Positions 41,856 through 50,909 of a DNA stretch of 64,000 nt are shown here, piece after piece. Both the position numbers and the translations under genes were made by a program. Within the stretch, counting starts at the first letter, position 1; the number at the start of each line of letters is the position of its first letter. The notes under the pieces are model-generated. The model ran no database searches. It saw only the letters and a program-made list of their open reading frames with translations, and was not told the origin of the DNA. This DNA is from Bacteroidota bacterium (GTDB lineage Bacteria > Bacteroidota > Bacteroidia > AKYH767-A > 2013-40CM-41-45), in contig SHNE01000041.1 in NCBI GenBank assembly GCA_004295015.1, forward strand, positions 1 to 64,000, read 5' to 3'.

Positions 41856-42865
41856 GGATAGATATACACACCCACATCATTCCGGAAAAACTTCCTGACT
41901 ACGCTTCTAAATTCGGTTATGGAGGATTTATTTCTCTTGATCATCATAAGCCGTGTTGTGCCCGCATGATGATGGATGGAAAGTTTTTCAGAGAGATACA
42001 GGATAATTGCTGGGATGCAGGAGTTCGTATGAAGGAATGTGATCATCATCGCATCGATGTTCAGGTACTTTCTACCATCCCAGTTATGTTCAGCTATTGG
42101 GCTAAAGCTCAGGATGCCCTGGATGTATCCATGTTTCTGAATGATCATATTGCCGGAATTGTTAAAGATTATCCACAACGATTCACCGGATTAGGAACTA
42201 TTCCCTTGCAAGCCCCTGATCTGGCAATCAAGGAATTGGAACGATGTATGAAAATTGGTTTGCATGGGATTCAAATTGGTTCTCATGTGAATGATTGGAA
42301 TTTAAATGCTCCTGAATTATTTCCTGTATTTGAAGCTGCCCAGGAATTAGGTGCCGCCATCTTCGTTCACCCATGGGATATGATGGGAAAAGATAAAATG
42401 TCAAAATACTGGCTGCCCTGGCTTGTTGGAATGCCTGCTGAAACTTCTCTGGCGATTTGCTCAATGATTTTTGGAGGTGTTTTTGAACGTCTTCCAAAAC
42501 TTCGTGTAGCCTTTGCACATGGGGGAGGCTCTTTCCCATCTACGATTGGACGTATTGAACATGGATTTAATGTTCGTCCTGATCTGGTCGCCATTGATAA
42601 TAAAGTAAATCCAAGAAAATACCTTCGACAATTTTACCTGGATTCACTCGTTCATGATCCTGTCATGCTCGACTATTTAATTGAACTTATGGGAGCCGAT
42701 CGAATTGCATTAGGTACAGATTATCCATTTCCATTAGGAGAGTTGCACCCCGGATCTCTAATCGATTCTATGCCTTACAAGGCCGACATAAAAGAACAAC
42801 TATTGTCAGGAACAGCGTTGGATTGGCTTGGTATAAAAAAAGAACAATTTAAATCTATTGTGTAA
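41852..42865 (+). CDS. nbaD: 2-amino-3-carboxymuconate-6-semialdehyde decarboxylase (ACMSD)
   Basis: Amidohydrolase-fold decarboxylase of 337 residues. It converts 2-amino-3-carboxymuconate semialdehyde to 2-aminomuconate semialdehyde, diverting it from spontaneous quinolinate formation. Zinc ligands H6, H8 (DIHTH), H173 (FVHPWD) and D290 (GTDYPFP), the catalytic H223 (FAHGGGSFP) and substrate-binding R47 (FREIQDNCWD) all align with the Pseudomonas enzyme at a constant offset of about four. Cytoplasmic. The start overlaps the stop of the TMTC-like gene, so the two are translationally coupled. The DUF1223 gene follows after 10 bases. Confidence 0.95.
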   Translation: MRIDIHTHIIPEKLPDYASKFGYGGFISLDHHKPCCARMMMDGKFFREIQDNCWDAGVRMKECDHHRIDVQVLSTIPVMFSYWAKAQDALDVSMFLNDHIAGIVKDYPQRFTGLGTIPLQAPDLAIKELERCMKIGLHGIQIGSHVNDWNLNAPELFPVFEAAQELGAAIFVHPWDMMGKDKMSKYWLPWLVGMPAETSLAICSMIFGGVFERLPKLRVAFAHGGGSFPSTIGRIEHGFNVRPDLVAIDNKVNPRKYLRQFYLDSLVHDPVMLDYLIELMGADRIALGTDYPFPLGELHPGSLIDSMPYKADIKEQLLSGTALDWLGIKKEQFKSIV

Positions 42866-42875
42866 TCGTATACCG

Positions 42876-43610
42876 ATGAACAGGCTTTCATGCTTACTCT
42901 TTATTCTACTCATAGCAGCTGAAGGATTTGCGCAAGAAAAAAAAGGCTTCGCTGTAGTAGAATTATTCACATCGGAAGGCTGTTCCAGTTGTCCTGCTGC
43001 AGATAAAATTCTTTCAGAGATTTCGACCGAGACAAAACGAGGGAATCAGGAAGTGTTTTTTCTGACATATCATGTTGATTATTGGAATAAATTGGGATGG
43101 AAGGATCCCTTCAGTAAATTTCAATTCACGCGACGACAGGAAAATTATTCCCGCGTACTTCCGTCCAAGGAATTGTACACTCCTCAGTTGATAGTAAATG
43201 GGACTACAGAAATGATTGGGTCCAAGAAAGAGAAGATTCAAAACACCATTAACCTTGCACTGAAAAGTAAAAGTCAATTGCACCTGGATCTGAAGCTAGA
43301 TAGCATGGTAGGAGATACTGCTTTTATTTCATGGAAGCTTTCTAATCAGGACAAAAATTTTGTCTTGCAATTAGCCCTTTGTCAGAATGGGATAGTAAAT
43401 AAAGTCAACAAAGGAGAGAATGCAGGAAAAACACTTTCTCACGACCATGTTGTACGCGCATTTTCAGCCGTAAATAATCCGGGCTCTTCCGGTCAGGTAA
43501 AATTTTTAGTGAAGGACAAAGATCCCGGATTAAAAAGTGAGATCATCGGATTTATCCAGCATAAGCAAAACTATTCTATCAAAGCCGCAGGCAGGATTCC
43601 ATTGTTGTAG
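42876..43610 (+). CDS. Exported DUF1223 thioredoxin-like protein
   Basis: The frame is open from a TTG at 42858 inside the ACMSD gene, but ATG at 42876 gives a signal peptide (MNRLSCLLFILLIAAEGFAQ), so I start there (244 residues). The mature N-terminus has VVELFTSEGCSSCPAADKIL, the CxxC region of the DUF1223 family, which has a thioredoxin-like fold. Further family strands are TYHVDYWNKLGWKDPFS and YTPQLIVNGTTEMIGS. The active-site-like CSSC suggests a periplasmic thiol-disulfide role, but none is proven for the family. It ends the plus-strand group and converges on the DUF5777 gene. Confidence 0.87.
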   Translation: MNRLSCLLFILLIAAEGFAQEKKGFAVVELFTSEGCSSCPAADKILSEISTETKRGNQEVFFLTYHVDYWNKLGWKDPFSKFQFTRRQENYSRVLPSKELYTPQLIVNGTTEMIGSKKEKIQNTINLALKSKSQLHLDLKLDSMVGDTAFISWKLSNQDKNFVLQLALCQNGIVNKVNKGENAGKTLSHDHVVRAFSAVNNPGSSGQVKFLVKDKDPGLKSEIIGFIQHKQNYSIKAAGRIPLL

Positions 43611-43635: not shown

Positions 43636-44529
43636 CTAGAGAGTAAATACCCTTGAAATATTAAATCCAAGACGGATGCCGGCATCATTCCATTGTGTTG
43701 TGGTATGCGGAAGAAATTGATTTTCTACAATACCGAATGAGTTTACCAAATGAATCTGAAAAACGTGACCTCCGGTTTCCAGTTCATAGCCAATTCCGAA
43801 GGTGTCATAATATTTTTCTTTCGTATAGTTTGGTAAACGGTAAGCATATTCAGCGGTGATAGCAGATCGTTTGCTGAATTTCAGACGAAACATTGCAGCT
43901 ACACCAAAGGCGTCATTTCTATCTGTAATTTTTTCAACCAGATTGTAGTGTACCATCCATGGTGCAATTTGCATGGAGAATGATGGAGTAAACTTTCTTC
44001 CAACCATAATTTGATAGGCATATGAAAAGCGGTTTGTTACCGGTTTGTATTTATCGTATCCATTGCTGGAAGCATTTCCATCTTTCAATGCAGTATAAAA
44101 CATACTGGCGAACAGAGTAACACTTACGGGCATTTTATTATCGGTTGTTTGTCTGAACAGACGATATTTAATAAATCCGTCATCCATTTTTTCGTACGAG
44201 CTTCGTCCGATTCCAAACATAAATCTTCCTTCAAAACTGTATTCCAGACTAAGACGAATATTTGCTGGGCCATCAATTCCCCATGCATTGTATGATCCGG
44301 TGTTTAAGGCTCCAAATCGATGTGATATCCGAAAGTCGAGAGTACGTGGACCGACCGACTCCAGTGTATGCATATTTACCAGCCGCGTGGTTTTGAAAGT
44401 TGCTATGGCAAAATCACGGGTTTTGGGATTGGTGCCTACGGAATCCAGCATGTCGAGCATATCCTGGCCTCGTGCTCCTTTTATCGATAAAAGGAATAAT
44501 AGGGATAAACAAAGTAATCGTAATTTCAT
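43636..44529 (-). CDS. DUF5777 family outer-membrane beta-barrel protein
   Basis: Protein of 297 residues with signal peptide (MKLRLLCLSLLFLLSIKGARGQ) and the DUF5777 hallmark segment RTLDFRISHRFGALNTGSYNAWGIDGPANIRLSLEY split over two strands (about residues 60-100). About twelve amphipathic strands run to a C-terminal strand ending in GFNISRVFTL, typical of barrel insertion signals. In Bacteroidota these barrels are often encoded near small cytochrome-like lipoproteins and YceI proteins, as partly seen here. No enzymatic motif. It lies 6 bases downstream of a CX4CH lipoprotein and is probably in the same operon. Confidence 0.82.
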   Translation of the reverse strand: MKLRLLCLSLLFLLSIKGARGQDMLDMLDSVGTNPKTRDFAIATFKTTRLVNMHTLESVGPRTLDFRISHRFGALNTGSYNAWGIDGPANIRLSLEYSFEGRFMFGIGRSSYEKMDDGFIKYRLFRQTTDNKMPVSVTLFASMFYTALKDGNASSNGYDKYKPVTNRFSYAYQIMVGRKFTPSFSMQIAPWMVHYNLVEKITDRNDAFGVAAMFRLKFSKRSAITAEYAYRLPNYTKEKYYDTFGIGYELETGGHVFQIHLVNSFGIVENQFLPHTTTQWNDAGIRLGFNISRVFTL

Positions 44530-44535
44530 AGCTTA

Positions 44536-44928
44536 TTAATTGTCTAATGTGCCACGGTTAATCCAGGCTTGAATTTTTTGAATACTGCAGGAACTTAACG
44601 AACCACCATCCTTCGGCATTGCATTATATCCTGACTCATGCAATATAGAACCCATAAGCGTTCCGTCAAAAACATAATCACGTACATTTTGTATATTGTC
44701 TAAGGGCAGGTCGCTGTCACTTGTTCCGCTTTGGTGACAGGAATTATTTGCACCACAATTGTTAACTAAAATAGGTACGATATCGGAGCTATAAGAAATT
44801 GTACCTGATGTATCACAAGGTGTAAACAAGTCATCTGCCGCATGAATTTCTTCCAGGTTATCATAATAGCACGACTGAAGCGAAGCAATTGATAGTGCCA
44901 ATAAAACGAACTTAATTTTCAATTTCAT
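44536..44928 (-). CDS. Small lipoprotein with CX4CH motif (cytochrome-like)
   Basis: The frame opens at 44964, but ATG at 44928 gives a lipoprotein signal peptide (MKLKIKFVLLALSIASLQSC) with lipid-modified C20, so I start there (130 residues). The mature part has IVPILVNNCGANNSCHQSG, a CX4CH variant of a heme-binding motif, then MPKDGG, where Met could be a distal heme ligand, and a final helix ending IQKIQAWINRG. This is the layout of the short cytochrome-c-like lipoproteins common in Bacteroidota and Planctomycetes. Heme attachment is not certain given the spacing. It starts 2 bases after the preceding stop. Confidence 0.78.
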   Translation of the reverse strand: MKLKIKFVLLALSIASLQSCYYDNLEEIHAADDLFTPCDTSGTISYSSDIVPILVNNCGANNSCHQSGTSDSDLPLDNIQNVRDYVFDGTLMGSILHESGYNAMPKDGGSLSSCSIQKIQAWINRGTLDN

Positions 44929-44929
44929 T

Positions 44930-45292
44930 TTAATTATTTTTTGCGCCTTGCTCAATCCAGACATAAATCAACTTTATACTTTTCGAATCAAGTAGCTCAG
45001 CCGGTTCGGGCGGCATTTCATTGGAAGACCTGTTACTTATTACTTTGTAAAGAGTGCTTGCGCGGGCATCTCCTTTTATCACACCACCATGATCAATGAC
45101 ATCGTCATAACCAATCAGGGAAAATTCTGATCCGTTTTTAGCATGACATTCAGCTTGACCACATGAACTTGTCAGAATTGGTTGTATGTCAGACTGAAAT
45201 AATACTTTAGGATTCGAAGGAATGTCTGGTTCTGTCCTGCAAGCCATGAGGCTTAAGGAAACTATCCCAATACAAATAGATAGAATTTTCAT
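44930..45292 (-). CDS. Small lipoprotein with CX3CH motif (cytochrome-like)
   Basis: Protein of 120 residues with lipoprotein signal peptide (MKILSICIGIVSLSLMACRTE, C18). The body has IQPILTSSCGQAECHAKNG, a CX3CH variant heme motif, then a Met-containing segment (NEMPPEPAELLDSKSI) and the same closing helix (IKLIYVWIEQGAKNN) as the next gene. The two are paralogues encoded head to tail. Non-standard CX3CH/CX4CH motifs occur in this family; covalent heme binding is therefore plausible but not assured. A terminator sits between it and the upstream choice-of-anchor V gene. Confidence 0.78.
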   Translation of the reverse strand: MKILSICIGIVSLSLMACRTEPDIPSNPKVLFQSDIQPILTSSCGQAECHAKNGSEFSLIGYDDVIDHGGVIKGDARASTLYKVISNRSSNEMPPEPAELLDSKSIKLIYVWIEQGAKNN

Positions 45293-45305
45293 CGCTGAAA
45301 GATAA

Positions 45306-45333
45306 GGAAAGAAAAACCGGAAATGAATTCCGG
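45306..45333 (-). terminator. Rho-independent terminator (minus strand)
   Basis: On the minus strand CCGGAA (complement of 45328-45333) pairs with TTCCGG (complement of 45317-45322) around TTCAT and is followed by TTTTTCTTT. It would end the transcript of the 45373-46221 gene and separate it from the two small lipoprotein genes. Confidence 0.6.
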
Positions 45334-45372
45334 CCTTTCTTTGTCGCAGGAAAAATTGATTTACCCAAAAAA

Positions 45373-46221
45373 CTATTCCAAAACGATTTTTTCAGATAAG
45401 GCCTTTCCGTTCAATAGAGCCTTCAACAAATATATACCTCTCGGATAGGCATCCAGCCCCTCCAGAGTTTGAGAAAACGAACCCGCCTGCTGCTCTATGG
45501 AAACAAGATTTTTGATAAGTTTTCCGTCTATGGCGTACAGAGCCATGCCTACTGTTCCGGGCTTGCTCAGGGTATAACTGATTTTTAATTTATCTATGCA
45601 GGGGTTTTGTACAATGAGCATGTTTTTTGAGTCTTGATCATTGGCAATTCCGGTCGTTTGCATAGCGCTTACCAATTGTTCTCCACGATAAACATAATCT
45701 CCGGCTTCATTATTAGCGGCATTGGAGGCTAGTCCGCAAAATGAAAAACTCAGATCCCCAATGTTGGTCAAAGGCGCAGTCCATTGAAAACTAAAAACGG
45801 CAGAATCGATTCCGGCACCTCCATTTAGGGTGTGAACGATATTTCTTCTGCTTACCGAGTTTATTGTTCTGGATTTAATTTGAGTGTGGGCTGCATCACT
45901 TACCAGTAAAGTCCCCGCATTTTGATTTGTTTGATCGATTGCCTCAAACCCTAGCCCGAATAGGTGGTTGCCGCTTCGGCTAACGACCACTTCAATCGTA
46001 TAAGTTTGGCCCGGTTCGTATTGCCAGTTGATCATATTTGATCGGGCTATCACGGATCCTCCACCACTGTTTAGGGCGTAGCTGTTGTGGCAGTTGAGAC
46101 AAGTGCTTTCTCCGCTTGAACCGGTATAGCCTGCTTTACCATTGTCACTCCAGATTTCGGCAGTGAGAATGGATATTGTACTTATAAAGACCAGGAGAAT
46201 TAGAACATTTTTTTTTATCAT
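45373..46221 (-). CDS. Choice-of-anchor V domain protein with CxxCH motif and T9SS sorting domain
   Basis: Protein of 282 residues with signal peptide (MIKKNVLILLVFISTISILTAE). Residues about 22-45 contain GYTGSSGESTCLNCHNSY, a standard CxxCH motif that could hold one c-type heme. The following beta-sandwich (Reelin-like, EPGQTYTIEVVVSRSGNHLFGLGFEA, FSFQWTAPLT) is the choice-of-anchor V domain. The last 75 residues are a T9SS type A domain (NPCIDKLKISYTL, PRGIYLLKALLNGK). It should sit on the cell surface. Together with the lipoproteins and barrel downstream it suggests a surface redox function, although a terminator at 45306 separates the transcripts. Confidence 0.85.
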   Translation of the reverse strand: MIKKNVLILLVFISTISILTAEIWSDNGKAGYTGSSGESTCLNCHNSYALNSGGGSVIARSNMINWQYEPGQTYTIEVVVSRSGNHLFGLGFEAIDQTNQNAGTLLVSDAAHTQIKSRTINSVSRRNIVHTLNGGAGIDSAVFSFQWTAPLTNIGDLSFSFCGLASNAANNEAGDYVYRGEQLVSAMQTTGIANDQDSKNMLIVQNPCIDKLKISYTLSKPGTVGMALYAIDGKLIKNLVSIEQQAGSFSQTLEGLDAYPRGIYLLKALLNGKALSEKIVLE

Positions 46222-46540
46222 TTTGAGTTTTAAGCTTTGCAGGATTCGGGTTACTAAAAACTTCGATTCAAACCTATACAGGAATTTGGGATGAATTCTG
46301 ATTTTTCAATGAAATGTAAAATGTTTGTTTTAAATTCATTTTGGTTCCAATTTTGACACGGTTCAATTTGAGATTTGAACAATAATCAGTTTGGGATTAT
46401 TTTTTAATTATCTTATGCAAATCTGACTTACCTTTAGACCTATTGAATTTATCTTTTGGGATGAAATAATTGAATGCATATTTGGTTTATACATATTATA
46501 CTTGTTTGCAGGAAGAAATCAATCAATTAATCAATAACCT
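46222..46540. other. Intergenic region between divergent genes
   Basis: 319 AT-rich bases between the choice-of-anchor V gene (minus) and the response-regulator gene (plus). TTTG at 46455-46458 and CATATTTG at 46477-46484 (18-base spacer) form a weak plus-strand promoter candidate. On the minus strand TAGGTTTG (complement of 46269-46276) could serve the choice-of-anchor V gene. No coding frame or RNA gene is seen. Confidence 0.4.
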
Positions 46541-47218
46541 ATGAAAATACTTATTGTAGAAGACGAACAGGAGTTATTGCAATCCATGGTATCCTTTTTG
46601 AAAGGATCAGGAATGACATGCGACATGGCAACAAATCTCAATGATGCAGTAGAAAAAATAGACATGTCCGATTACGATTGTATTGTGTTGGATATCGGTT
46701 TACCTGACGGAAGCGGGTTAAAGTTGATTGAGGAATTACAAAAGAAAGATCATCAAACAGGGGTCGTCATTGTTTCAGCAAGAAATTCTTTGGAAGATCG
46801 CCTGACCGGATTAAATATCGGAGCGGATGATTATGTCACGAAACCTTTTTATATGCCTGAACTTGTCGCAAGAATAAAATCGGTTTTTCGTCGCCGTTCT
46901 TTTCAGGGACAAAATGAAATCATTCACAATGAGCTTAAGGTAATACCCGATGAAATGTTGATGTATGTACACGAGAAACTTATCAGCCTGACCAAGAAAG
47001 AACATGAGTTATTACTCTATTTTTTAAGTAACAGCAATAAGGTTCTCACAAAAGAGTCCATCGCCGAACATTTATGGGGTGATCATGCAGATATGGCAGA
47101 TTCTTTTGACTTCATCTACAGCCACATTAAAAATCTCAGAAAAAAAATTACAGATAACGGCGGGAAAGACTATCTTAAATCGATATACGGCGTAGGATAT
47201 AAATTTTCCAACGAATGA
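46541..47218 (+). CDS. OmpR-family response regulator
   Basis: Protein of 225 residues. The receiver domain (1-118) has the acidic pair E7-D8 (VEDEQ), phospho-acceptor D51 (IVLDIGLPDG), SARN switch residues near 94 and K102-type Lys in DDYVTKPFYMPEL. The C-terminal winged-helix DNA-binding domain (about 128-225) has LISLTKKEHELLLYFL and SHIKNLRKKI, ending IYGVGYKFSNE. It is activated by phosphotransfer from the histidine kinase encoded next, with which it overlaps by 4 bases (ATGA). The signal is unknown. Its regulon could include the glycine-rich surface protein downstream, which is inference from position. Confidence 0.95.
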   Translation: MKILIVEDEQELLQSMVSFLKGSGMTCDMATNLNDAVEKIDMSDYDCIVLDIGLPDGSGLKLIEELQKKDHQTGVVIVSARNSLEDRLTGLNIGADDYVTKPFYMPELVARIKSVFRRRSFQGQNEIIHNELKVIPDEMLMYVHEKLISLTKKEHELLLYFLSNSNKVLTKESIAEHLWGDHADMADSFDFIYSHIKNLRKKITDNGGKDYLKSIYGVGYKFSNE

Positions 47219-48504
47219 AGTTATTAAATGTAACGAACAGGTATTACATCGCAATCGCTTTAGCTCTTTTGTTGATCAGTAGCGCTTTTCTGTCTTACCG
47301 GGTGTTTGATTTACTTGACAATGAAATATCTGAGCACATGCTCTTCGAGAAGATGGAAATCGAAAAGCAATTGTCTGCTCAAAGAGATATTCAGGGAATA
47401 AACTTTGTGATCGGAGACAAGATTGAAATAGAACCACTGGAGAAATTTACAACCTTTCGCGTTTCATTGGTTGATACCATCAAGTTTGATCCTTACGAAG
47501 ATGCCGTTGTACCTTACAGGCGTCTTTCTTACGAGCAGCTCATTGGTGAAGACAGTTATCGAATTACACTTTGGAAAAGACTGAGTGAGACTGAGGGACT
47601 GTTTAGCGGTGTGGCCTTCACATTATTACTCGTTGCAATTGATATCATAGCCTGCTTTTATTTTCTGAACAGATGGTTTTCAAAGAGGGTATGGAAACCT
47701 TTCTACCGGGCTTTGAGCGGATTGAAGCATTTCGATTTGCATAAAGGAGAGCGAATAAGTTTTCAGCGCTCAGAGATTGAGGAGTTCAATACATTGAATG
47801 TAGAATTGAGCAAACTGACAGATAAAGTGGCAAGGGATTATCAAAATTTACGGGAGTTTACTGAAAACATGTCTCATGAAACTCAAACTCCTCTTGCCAT
47901 CATACGATCAAAATTGGAATTACTTGTTCAGTCGGAAAAACTTGATTCAGAACAATTGGGTCATATAAAAAGCGCCCTGGATTCGGTTAACCGATTGTCT
48001 AAAATGAACAAGAGTTTGATTCTCCTCACCCGTATTGAGAATGATCAATACAACATTGCGGAGGCTTTGAACTTTTCTCAGTTGATAAGACGACACCTTG
48101 ACAAATTTGACTTGTTCATCTCCTCGCGAGAACTTCAGCTGAAATTAAATCTGGAAGAAAATGTATGGATAAAAATAAATCCGAATCTTGCCGACATCCT
48201 GCTAAGCAATTTACTTTCCAATGCTATCAAGTATAATACAATTCATGGAGAGTTGAAGATTGATCTCACTTCTTCTCAGCTAAAAATTTCAAATAGCGGA
48301 GCGCCGTTAACCATTGAAGGAGATCAAATTTTTGAACGATTTAAAAAGGGAGATCAACCGGATTCTGTTGGATTGGGTTTAGCTATTGTCAAAAAGGTTT
48401 GCGACCATTGCTCATGTGATATCCATTATACTTACCGGGACGACCGCCATGTATTTACCATAGAATTTCCTGTGGAGAAAGTAATTGATGAAGAAGAAGC
48501 TTAG
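47215..48504 (+). CDS. Sensor histidine kinase
   Basis: Membrane kinase of 429 residues. Two membrane helices (about 8-30 and 130-152) enclose a periplasmic sensor of about 100 residues without a recognised domain. The cytoplasmic part has the HisKA H-box MSHETQTPLAII with phospho-acceptor H221, the N-box LLSNLLSNAIKYN and the G2-type loop VGLGLAIVKKV. The G1 loop reads SNSGAPL instead of DxGxG, as often in Bacteroidota kinases. It phosphorylates the response regulator encoded just upstream. Its last residues are acidic (DEEEA). Confidence 0.93.
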   Translation: MKLLNVTNRYYIAIALALLLISSAFLSYRVFDLLDNEISEHMLFEKMEIEKQLSAQRDIQGINFVIGDKIEIEPLEKFTTFRVSLVDTIKFDPYEDAVVPYRRLSYEQLIGEDSYRITLWKRLSETEGLFSGVAFTLLLVAIDIIACFYFLNRWFSKRVWKPFYRALSGLKHFDLHKGERISFQRSEIEEFNTLNVELSKLTDKVARDYQNLREFTENMSHETQTPLAIIRSKLELLVQSEKLDSEQLGHIKSALDSVNRLSKMNKSLILLTRIENDQYNIAEALNFSQLIRRHLDKFDLFISSRELQLKLNLEENVWIKINPNLADILLSNLLSNAIKYNTIHGELKIDLTSSQLKISNSGAPLTIEGDQIFERFKKGDQPDSVGLGLAIVKKVCDHCSCDIHYTYRDDRHVFTIEFPVEKVIDEEEA

Positions 48505-48728: not shown

Positions 48729-50909
48729 ATGAAGTATTCATTACGTCCAAGCGTTTCTTTAACAACGAAGTTGACCACCCGTACATGGGTACTCGCTACC
48801 GTTGGTCTGCTTGCATTTTCAGTTTCGCTAGTCCTTATTTCGAATTTCGGAGTACATCAGCCTGCTGTAGCTGCTGTCGGTTTTCATGGGAATAAAACAA
48901 TCACCGGTTCCAATGTTATTTTGAATGAGTATACAACACTTACTTCAAGTGCCTCTAGTGGTTCTACAAGTTTAACTGTAGCCAATGCATACCTAAACCA
49001 AAACAATCGTTTCGCCTCGAATCTTGCGGCAGGAGAGCTAATTCTCATTATTCAAATGCAGGGAGCAACTCTCGATGAAACAGATGGATCAACCTATGGC
49101 GCAGTAGCCTCCTATGGAAATGCCGGTAAGCGTGAATTTGTTGAAGTAGCTTCTGTCCCCAATAGTACAACGATTAGTTTGGTTAACGCACTGAGTAAAA
49201 GTTACTCGGCCAGTGGTAAGGTTCAAATTGTCCGCATTCCGAGATATGAAATTTTCACCATCCAATCGGGTGCTTCTGTTACTTGTCCTGCATGGGATGG
49301 TGCTACGGGTGGGATCGTAAGTATTGAAGCAAATAAAACCACAACCATAAACGGATCAATTAATGTTTCAGGAAAAGGTTTCAGAGGTGGTACCGTTGAA
49401 CAGAAAACATCGACACCGGGTAACCATACAACATATCGCTCAAGCAATGATATAGATGGTGCAGAAAAAGGAGAAGGTATAGGTGGTTATCAGTCTTCTT
49501 ATGTCAATGGTCGTTACGGCCGGGGTGCTCCTGCCAATGGAGGTGGAGGTGGAAATTCCCATAATGCCGGCGGCGGCGGTGGTGCCAATGGAGGTTCATC
49601 AGGTTCCTGGACTGGATTCGGAAATCCACATAATTTGAATTCCAATTGGACTACAGCATGGAATCTTGAAGGCGCTGGATTTTCTTCCACTACTTCGAGT
49701 GGTGGTGGCCGAGGGGGCTATTCCTGGTCTAATGGTGCACAGAATCCTATAACGACAGGGCCGGGTGACGCATCATGGTCCGGTGACAGTAGATATAATG
49801 TTGGTGGGTTTGGTGGAAGACCATTGAGTTATTCATCAGGCAAAATGTATTTGGGTGGAGGTGGTGGTGCCGGCGATTCGAACAATAATGTTGGAACGCC
49901 CGGGGGAAATGGGGGCGGTATCGTTTATCTTCTAAGTGGTGGAGCCGTAAGCGGAACCGGAATTATAAATGCTAATGGAGAGTCAGTCCCGGCATCCAGC
50001 GGTTCGCCCGGAGATGCAGGTGGCGGTGGTGGTGGTGGCGGAACCATTATTATTTTCACCTATGGTGCCTCTATCAGTGGACTTACTTTGAGTGCAAATG
50101 GTGGTGCCGGAGGAAGCCAAAGTCTTAATAACGGAAATGAGGTTGAAGGAAATGGCGGCGGCGGCGGCGGCGGATATATCAGCACTACGAACAATACCGG
50201 TTTGACAAGAACAGTCAATGGTGGAGCATATGGGACTACTAACGCACCTCCTATGTCAGCCTTTATCGCCAATGGCGCAACTTCCGGTGGGCCGGGAACA
50301 ATTACTACTGGACCTCCGAATCCTTACACCACGCCGACACCATTGCCGGTTAAGCTAAGTTCCTTTTCCGGTCAAGTGGTAAATAACACCGTGAAGTTGA
50401 AATGGGTAACAAGTTCAGAATTGAATAATGATTATTTCAGTATCGAACAAAGTAGAGATGGTGCTGAGTTTTCAGAAATAGCAAAAGTTCAAGGCGCAGG
50501 AAATAGTACGATCGAAATTAATTACAGCTACAATGATGATAAGCCTCTTAATGGAAGCAGCTACTATCGTTTGAGCCAAACGGATTATGATGGGAAACGA
50601 GAAACATTTAACACGATCATGCTGAAACTTGACAAGACGGGTTCGGTCGAACCATTTTCGATTGTATCTGCCTCGCCGGTTCCATTCAAAGACAAGCTTC
50701 ATATAGAATTTCAAACCATAGAGTCACGAAGTGTAGAGCTTTGGCTATTAAGTGCAGAGGGTAAAGTTATCCGCAGAGCCAGAATGAATGCCAGTTCCGG
50801 AAATAATAGTTTTGACTGGAAAGATTTGTCGGATCTGAAGCCTGGAACCTATCTGGTTTACATATTATCAAATGGAAAAAGCCTTTCGGCCAGGAAAATC
50901 GTTAAATAG
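48729..50909 (+). CDS. Glycine-rich surface protein with T9SS sorting domain
   Basis: Protein of 726 residues. A long basic N-terminus precedes a hydrophobic signal segment (about 21-40). Residues 50-190 are beta-rich (TGSNVILNEYTTLTSS, ELILIIQMQGATLDE). Residues about 210-500 are strongly glycine-rich, with runs of five to seven Gly (GGGGGNSHNAGGGGGANGG, DAGGGGGGGGTIII) and right-handed-helix-like strand patterns. Next is the Bacteroidota-specific segment LPVKLSSFSGQ... LKWVTSSELNNDYFSIEQS, and then a T9SS type A tail (LKPGTYLVYILSNGK). It is probably an adhesin or matrix component. It follows the two-component genes and is followed by a terminator. Confidence 0.82.
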   Translation: MKYSLRPSVSLTTKLTTRTWVLATVGLLAFSVSLVLISNFGVHQPAVAAVGFHGNKTITGSNVILNEYTTLTSSASSGSTSLTVANAYLNQNNRFASNLAAGELILIIQMQGATLDETDGSTYGAVASYGNAGKREFVEVASVPNSTTISLVNALSKSYSASGKVQIVRIPRYEIFTIQSGASVTCPAWDGATGGIVSIEANKTTTINGSINVSGKGFRGGTVEQKTSTPGNHTTYRSSNDIDGAEKGEGIGGYQSSYVNGRYGRGAPANGGGGGNSHNAGGGGGANGGSSGSWTGFGNPHNLNSNWTTAWNLEGAGFSSTTSSGGGRGGYSWSNGAQNPITTGPGDASWSGDSRYNVGGFGGRPLSYSSGKMYLGGGGGAGDSNNNVGTPGGNGGGIVYLLSGGAVSGTGIINANGESVPASSGSPGDAGGGGGGGGTIIIFTYGASISGLTLSANGGAGGSQSLNNGNEVEGNGGGGGGGYISTTNNTGLTRTVNGGAYGTTNAPPMSAFIANGATSGGPGTITTGPPNPYTTPTPLPVKLSSFSGQVVNNTVKLKWVTSSELNNDYFSIEQSRDGAEFSEIAKVQGAGNSTIEINYSYNDDKPLNGSSYYRLSQTDYDGKRETFNTIMLKLDKTGSVEPFSIVSASPVPFKDKLHIEFQTIESRSVELWLLSAEGKVIRRARMNASSGNNSFDWKDLSDLKPGTYLVYILSNGKSLSARKIVK

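Follow-up and report, generated by a model that had tools for sequence, protein, structure and literature searches.

A conserved Bacteroidota gene neighbourhood linking a DUF5777 outer-membrane barrel to putative monoheme cytochrome lipoproteins

The four-gene unit and its products

The window, i.e., the whole stretch of 64,000 nucleotides analysed here, comes from a Bacteroidota bacterium and contains a unit of four neighbouring genes on the same strand (Table 1). They encode a choice_anch_V protein, the two lipoproteins lipA and lipB, and an outer-membrane barrel of the DUF5777 family, the lipoprotein genes lying directly upstream of the barrel gene. A preliminary description of this DNA had placed the same four genes here, and the open reading frames match its coordinates exactly. 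A response regulator and a histidine kinase are encoded divergently from the unit; this pair is found beside the module in eight genomes of the same family and is a possible regulator of it. Convergent with the barrel gene lies the gene of a DUF1223/Omp28-like thioredoxin-fold protein, which also neighbours the barrel in several genomes of the family. Farther along the forward strand, a glycine-rich protein of 726 amino acids is encoded, the T9SS sorting domain of which scores above the Pfam cut-off.

Table 1. Positions of the four-gene unit, its flanking genes, and the fused form found in relatives
Feature	Position	Strand	Basis
DUF1223/Omp28-like thioredoxin-fold protein	42858-43610	+	
DUF5777 outer-membrane barrel, predicted 12 strands	43636..44529	-	PF19089
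lipB lipoprotein, putative monoheme cytochrome	44536..44964	-	ORF map; likely start 44916
lipA lipoprotein, putative monoheme class-I-like c-type cytochrome domain	44930..45292	-	ORF map
choice_anch_V (Reeler-like)/T9SS protein	45373..46221	-	ORF map; NF041895 match
Intergenic region, putative promoter region of the four-gene unit	46222..46540	.	ORF map; inference
Response regulator/histidine kinase pair, in divergent orientation	46541-48504	+	ORF map
Glycine-rich protein	48729-50909	+	
Cytochrome-DUF5777 fusion	L217:4472-5707	-	Single polypeptide; also L218-L224

The barrel matches PF19089 over its full length with 283 bits against a gathering score of 23.1 (E = 1.7e-84), which confirms the family originally named for it. 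Its AF2 model (pLDDT 87.6, pTM 0.78) has 12 strands, and the nearest folds are those of KdgM, NanC, and FapF at Z of about 17-18. For comparison, about 16-17 strands occur in Cyc2-type barrels and 26 in MtrB/PioB (PMC10654088). Measured against these numbers, a barrel of 12 predicted strands is unlikely to hold a cytochrome and, as modelled, appears too narrow for an MtrAB-style wire. DUF5777 is present in 60 of 61 relatives and in 37 of the 90 genomes sampled across the phylum, and the source genome has two DUF5777 loci. The family is not mentioned in the literature searched.

The two lipoproteins are paralogues, as had been proposed, with phmmer cross-hits of about 1e-6 to 1e-7. lipA carries the motif CGQAECH, i.e., the CX4CH already described for it, and a candidate distal Met in MPP. 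The CX3CH given for lipB, however, is wrong: its motif is CGANNSCH (CX5CH), accompanied by a candidate distal Met116 in MP and an extra cysteine pair, C50/C126. Neither protein reaches a Pfam cut-off. lipA stays just below that of PSCyt1 (PF07635; 20.9 bits against 22, E = 5e-4) and lipB gives no match, while some relatives do reach it. In addition, lipA falls into a CX4CH clade in the tree and shows a weak sequence match to FoxE (5mab). An internal Met at 44916 (MKLKIKF...LQSC) is the more probable start of lipB, giving MKLKIKFVLLALSIASLQSC; the 35-bp overlap with lipA thereby disappears.

In an alignment of 32 relatives of lipB, which are only 30-45% identical to lipB, the residues C32, C50, C70, C76, H77, M116, P117, C126, and W134 are invariant, including the lipobox Cys. 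A profile of the lipB family matches cytochrome c6 structures (1.3e-4), and the AF2 model of lipB (pLDDT 83) has one helix that stops immediately ahead of the motif and another at the C terminus, which is the class-I cytochrome pattern. A Foldseek search with this model gave no significant structural match; a second structural aligner returned FoxE as the only neighbour, with a Z of 7.2 and an rmsd of 3.0 over 86 residues, values in the range of chance matches. A chance origin of the heme motifs is rejected: divergent relatives retain Cys, Cys-His, and Met without exception, and conservation extends to the gene neighbourhood. By CXnCH motif, distal Met, and fold pattern, lipA and lipB are predicted to be divergent class-I monoheme c-type cytochromes. 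The apoproteins would receive covalent heme from the Ccm system of the source genome, which contains CcmB, CcmC, CcmE, and CcmF. Residues +2 to +9 of lipB are 38% acidic, compared with 9% overall, and position +4 is D in 31 of 32 sequences. The N terminus is, thus, acidic, yet not a textbook example of the lipoprotein export signal (LES) of Bacteroidota (PMC5080379).

The choice_anch_V protein matches NF041895 with 79.4 bits against a curated cut-off of 42 (E = 2.8e-22) and has a signal peptide. It had been presented as a T9SS-exported protein with a CLNCH motif. The motif (CX2CH) is indeed found at residues 41-45, whereas the C-terminal T9SS sorting domain is borderline by score, reaching 22.7 bits against a cut-off of 23 with TIGR04183 and 20.2 against 27 with Pfam. 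Intact relatives end in typical T9SS tails. Throughout the family, C..CH is present in 32 of 39 rows, the remainder being cut at the N terminus; a downstream His is kept in 31 of 39, and the spacing again varies, from CX2CH to CX5CH. Two such proteins are encoded in the source genome. A literature search combining T9SS, c-type cytochromes, and extracellular electron transfer in Bacteroidota found nothing.

Conservation of the neighbourhood and Cys-Cys spacing

The preliminary description had named conservation beyond the source genome as a check, and the neighbourhood is indeed conserved across the phylum and outside the class. Considering the 77 barrels with enough upstream sequence, a cytochrome lies within three same-strand genes of 64, YceI of 42, and choice_anch_V of 16. 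These counts are slightly low, since the barrels of L105 and L213 escaped ORF calling, as did the lipoproteins of L065. For choice_anch_V, only the domain profile was used; home-made T9V, lyox, and fer4tpr profiles were contaminated by T9SS tails and TPR repeats. At random, a cytochrome would be expected beside only 1-2% of barrels, given only about 10 matches to the lipB profile (E<=1e-3) across the 3.86 Mb of the genome. Genome-wide counts come from genome searches, a raw count of the CX2CH DNA pattern being uninformative. The choice_anch_V protein, adjoining only 16 of the 77 barrels, is an optional component.

Among 18 readable loci outside the class, a separate cytochrome is encoded in 15, a fusion in one, and a Rieske protein in one. 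The usual order there is cytochrome-YceI-barrel, and YceI is present in nearly all distant loci. In L037, L116, and L206, the place of the cytochrome is occupied by a Rieske protein. In another order, cytochrome and barrel form one polypeptide, intact in seven genomes, with a CX4CH domain N-terminal to DUF5777. Six of these fusion proteins are 52-57% identical to the seventh, all contain CX4CH and MP, and a separate cytochrome gene often adjoins the fusion gene. A second candidate fusion, G049 (a 460-aa open frame in L105), proved to be a plain barrel after YceI. The co-occurrence with cytochromes and YceI, the fusion, and the Rieske protein in the cytochrome slot argue for DUF5777 being a redox-linked barrel. 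A YceI partner, for which a search had been proposed, is missing at the window locus (none on contig C22) and at most window-type loci, but six YceI proteins are encoded elsewhere in the source genome and most sister loci have one.

Several related loci differ in composition. In L050 (G005:C117), from a member of the same family, the barrel and flanking genes are kept, but no cytochrome lipoprotein was found beside them. Another type of DUF5777 module occurs in L051, L061, L072, L075, L092, and L097 and comprises, in this order, a 4Fe-4S/TPR membrane protein, a CWxCH cytochrome, the barrel, and a PSCyt-like lipoprotein. A T9SS protein is often present as well, and the one in L061 gives a weak lysyl-oxidase match. 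L131 (G000:C19:30000-49900) has no barrel; it combines cytochrome lipoproteins of the diheme and monoheme kind with YceI and an OB-fold (PF12869) protein, and lies convergent to cbb3 oxidase genes.

The Cys-Cys spacing was counted in 160 cytochrome domains, including close relatives; it is 4 in 71, 2 in 65, 6 in eight, 5 in seven, 9 in six, and 3 in three. Relatives of lipB cover CX2CH, CX3CH, CX4CH, CX5CH, CX6CH, and CX9CH while Cys, Cys-His, and Met stay invariant. lipA-type proteins of window-type modules are CX4CH. The lipB type is mostly CX2CH; its spacings of 5, 6, and 9 occur chiefly in window-type modules, and G, N, D, S, and T are frequent among the residues inserted between the cysteines. 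CX9CH relatives of lipB are found in L082, L091, L182, L183, L186, and L188 (e.g., CGTTGGSAAGCH). A frameshift or annotation artefact behind the long spacings is ruled out by their recurrence in independent genomes. A tree computed with the loop left out requires 18 or more spacing changes, a minimum that holds for this tree, and well-supported branches force at least three for CX5 and at least two for CX6; the deep forks are weak because the tree comprises only 91 columns. The terms CX5CH to CX7CH, taken literally, gave no match in the literature searched, in which no description of variable spacing (CX2CH to CX9CH) in monoheme carriers was found either. The lipB family offers a natural CX2CH-CX9CH series with which to probe how far heme attachment tolerates spacing in a monoheme carrier.

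Proposed working of the module and alternative readings

The module is real, conserved, and apparently undescribed. A redox module of a barrel and c-type cytochromes with non-standard heme motifs, as first suggested, is supported by the conserved neighbourhood, the fusion in seven genomes, YceI, and the Ccm genes. As to its working, we tentatively favour, at somewhat less than even chances, an outer-membrane redox module of Bacteroidota built around the DUF5777 barrel, in which the cytochromes would bind at the mouth of the barrel and pass electrons to or from a carrier that is small or quinone-like. Outer-membrane barrels normally have their N terminus in the periplasm, and this is the end to which the fusion joins the cytochrome; a lipA-type cytochrome would, for this reason, dock at the periplasmic mouth. 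Electrons may be exchanged with a lipophilic carrier, e.g., a quinone held by YceI, or alternatively with a small solute that is redox-active and crosses the narrow channel of 12 strands. Most solved YceI proteins contain a quinone or isoprenoid, and YceI and the Rieske protein of sister loci are candidate carrier partners. lipB, with its LES-reminiscent acidic N terminus, and the choice_anch_V heme-motif protein may sit on the outer face as the surface end. A link to oxygen respiration is hinted at by a sister module next to the cbb3 oxidase genes. Against this module speak the absence of YceI from the locus and the distance between single hemes on either side of the membrane, which would be far for tunnelling.

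The preliminary description went further and let electrons pass from the periplasm through the barrel to the surface. With only 12 strands predicted and YceI missing at the locus, such a surface conduit is one possible reading, not the demonstrated one. In its most minimal form, it would combine a 12-strand barrel, monoheme cytochromes on both faces, a T9SS-exported heme protein, and a maturation accepting Cys-Cys spacings of 2-9 in one orthologous carrier; a conduit of this kind, unlike known ones, seems doubtful.

The frequent YceI neighbours (42 of 77 loci and nearly all distant ones) would also fit a role in membrane protection. Herein, cytochromes and YceI would recycle a quinone antioxidant against lipid peroxyl radicals, and the barrel would let the lipocalin, or the ligand that it binds, reach the outer membrane. 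YceI proteins with bound quinone and the system of BcnA (a YceI lipocalin) and LcoA (a cytochrome b561) set the precedent (PMC9113575), and the module of L042 adjoins the genes of a sigma factor/anti-sigma pair, as does, judged by eye, that of L206. However, YceI is missing from the window locus and most window-type loci, and the cytochromes are of the c-type monoheme lipoprotein kind instead of b561; this role is rather improbable.

Similarly unlikely is a respiratory accessory, i.e., a periplasmic electron shuttle to or from a cbb3 oxidase with a barrel that only imports a substrate of the cytochromes, such as a metal ion or small organic molecule. The KdgM/NanC-like fold is of the solute-channel type, and a third cytochrome/YceI module of the source genome, without a barrel, is convergent to the cbb3 oxidase operon (CcoNO, CcoP, CcoG), and G001 and G009 likewise have CcoP/CcoG close to such modules. 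The cbb3 adjacency, however, was seen only in three genomes of one family and for another module type, and the window locus is not near cbb3 genes.

Finally, the long-spacing lipoproteins (CX5CH to CX9CH) could lack normal double-thioether heme and act as structural or sensing partners with one-Cys heme, a disulfide, or a metal, spacings above 4 not being a described standard substrate in the literature searched, but this is very unlikely given that none of the 32 relatives, whether of short or long spacing, has lost either Cys, the His, or the Met, that mass spectrometry found heme on CX3CH and CX4CH motifs of MmcA (PMC11024163), and that CX15CH is served by a dedicated lyase (PMC12285233).

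Outer-membrane redox systems are poorly described in the Bacteroidota, and the redox module around DUF5777 adds to them. Ties to cytochromes, YceI, and Rieske proteins, together with the fusions, give this unnamed family a testable role in outer-membrane redox chemistry.

Comparison with known systems

FoxE, a diheme iron oxidase, is the best structural neighbour of lipB (Z 7.2) and the weak sequence match of lipA; it differs in being a diheme CXXCH protein, and the likeness may reflect only the shared cytochrome fold. Cbp2D and Cbp2E of Cellvibrio resemble the sister loci by joining a YceI-like (X158) quinone-binding domain to monoheme c-type cytochromes in extracellular redox chemistry, but each is a single secreted polypeptide that carries carbohydrate-binding modules and lacks a barrel (PMC8981238). 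In BcnA/LcoA, a YceI lipocalin lies beside a heme protein as in DUF5777 sister loci; the heme protein is of the b561 type, whereas the window encodes c-type lipoproteins and a barrel without YceI. The MtrAB, PioAB, and MtoAB systems share with the window an outer-membrane barrel genetically tied to c-type cytochromes, yet these are decaheme proteins with a barrel of 26 strands (PMC10654088), in contrast to one motif per protein and a 12-strand model here. Cyc2-type cytochrome-porins of Fe(II) oxidation belong to another barrel family and join an N-terminal cytochrome and a barrel of about 16-17 strands in one polypeptide, whereas the window has separate genes, 12 predicted strands, and full-length class-I-like cytochrome domains with CX4CH/CX5CH. 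Like them, the DUF5777 family ties a monoheme c-type cytochrome to a barrel, and in relatives of the window module the fused form exists as well.
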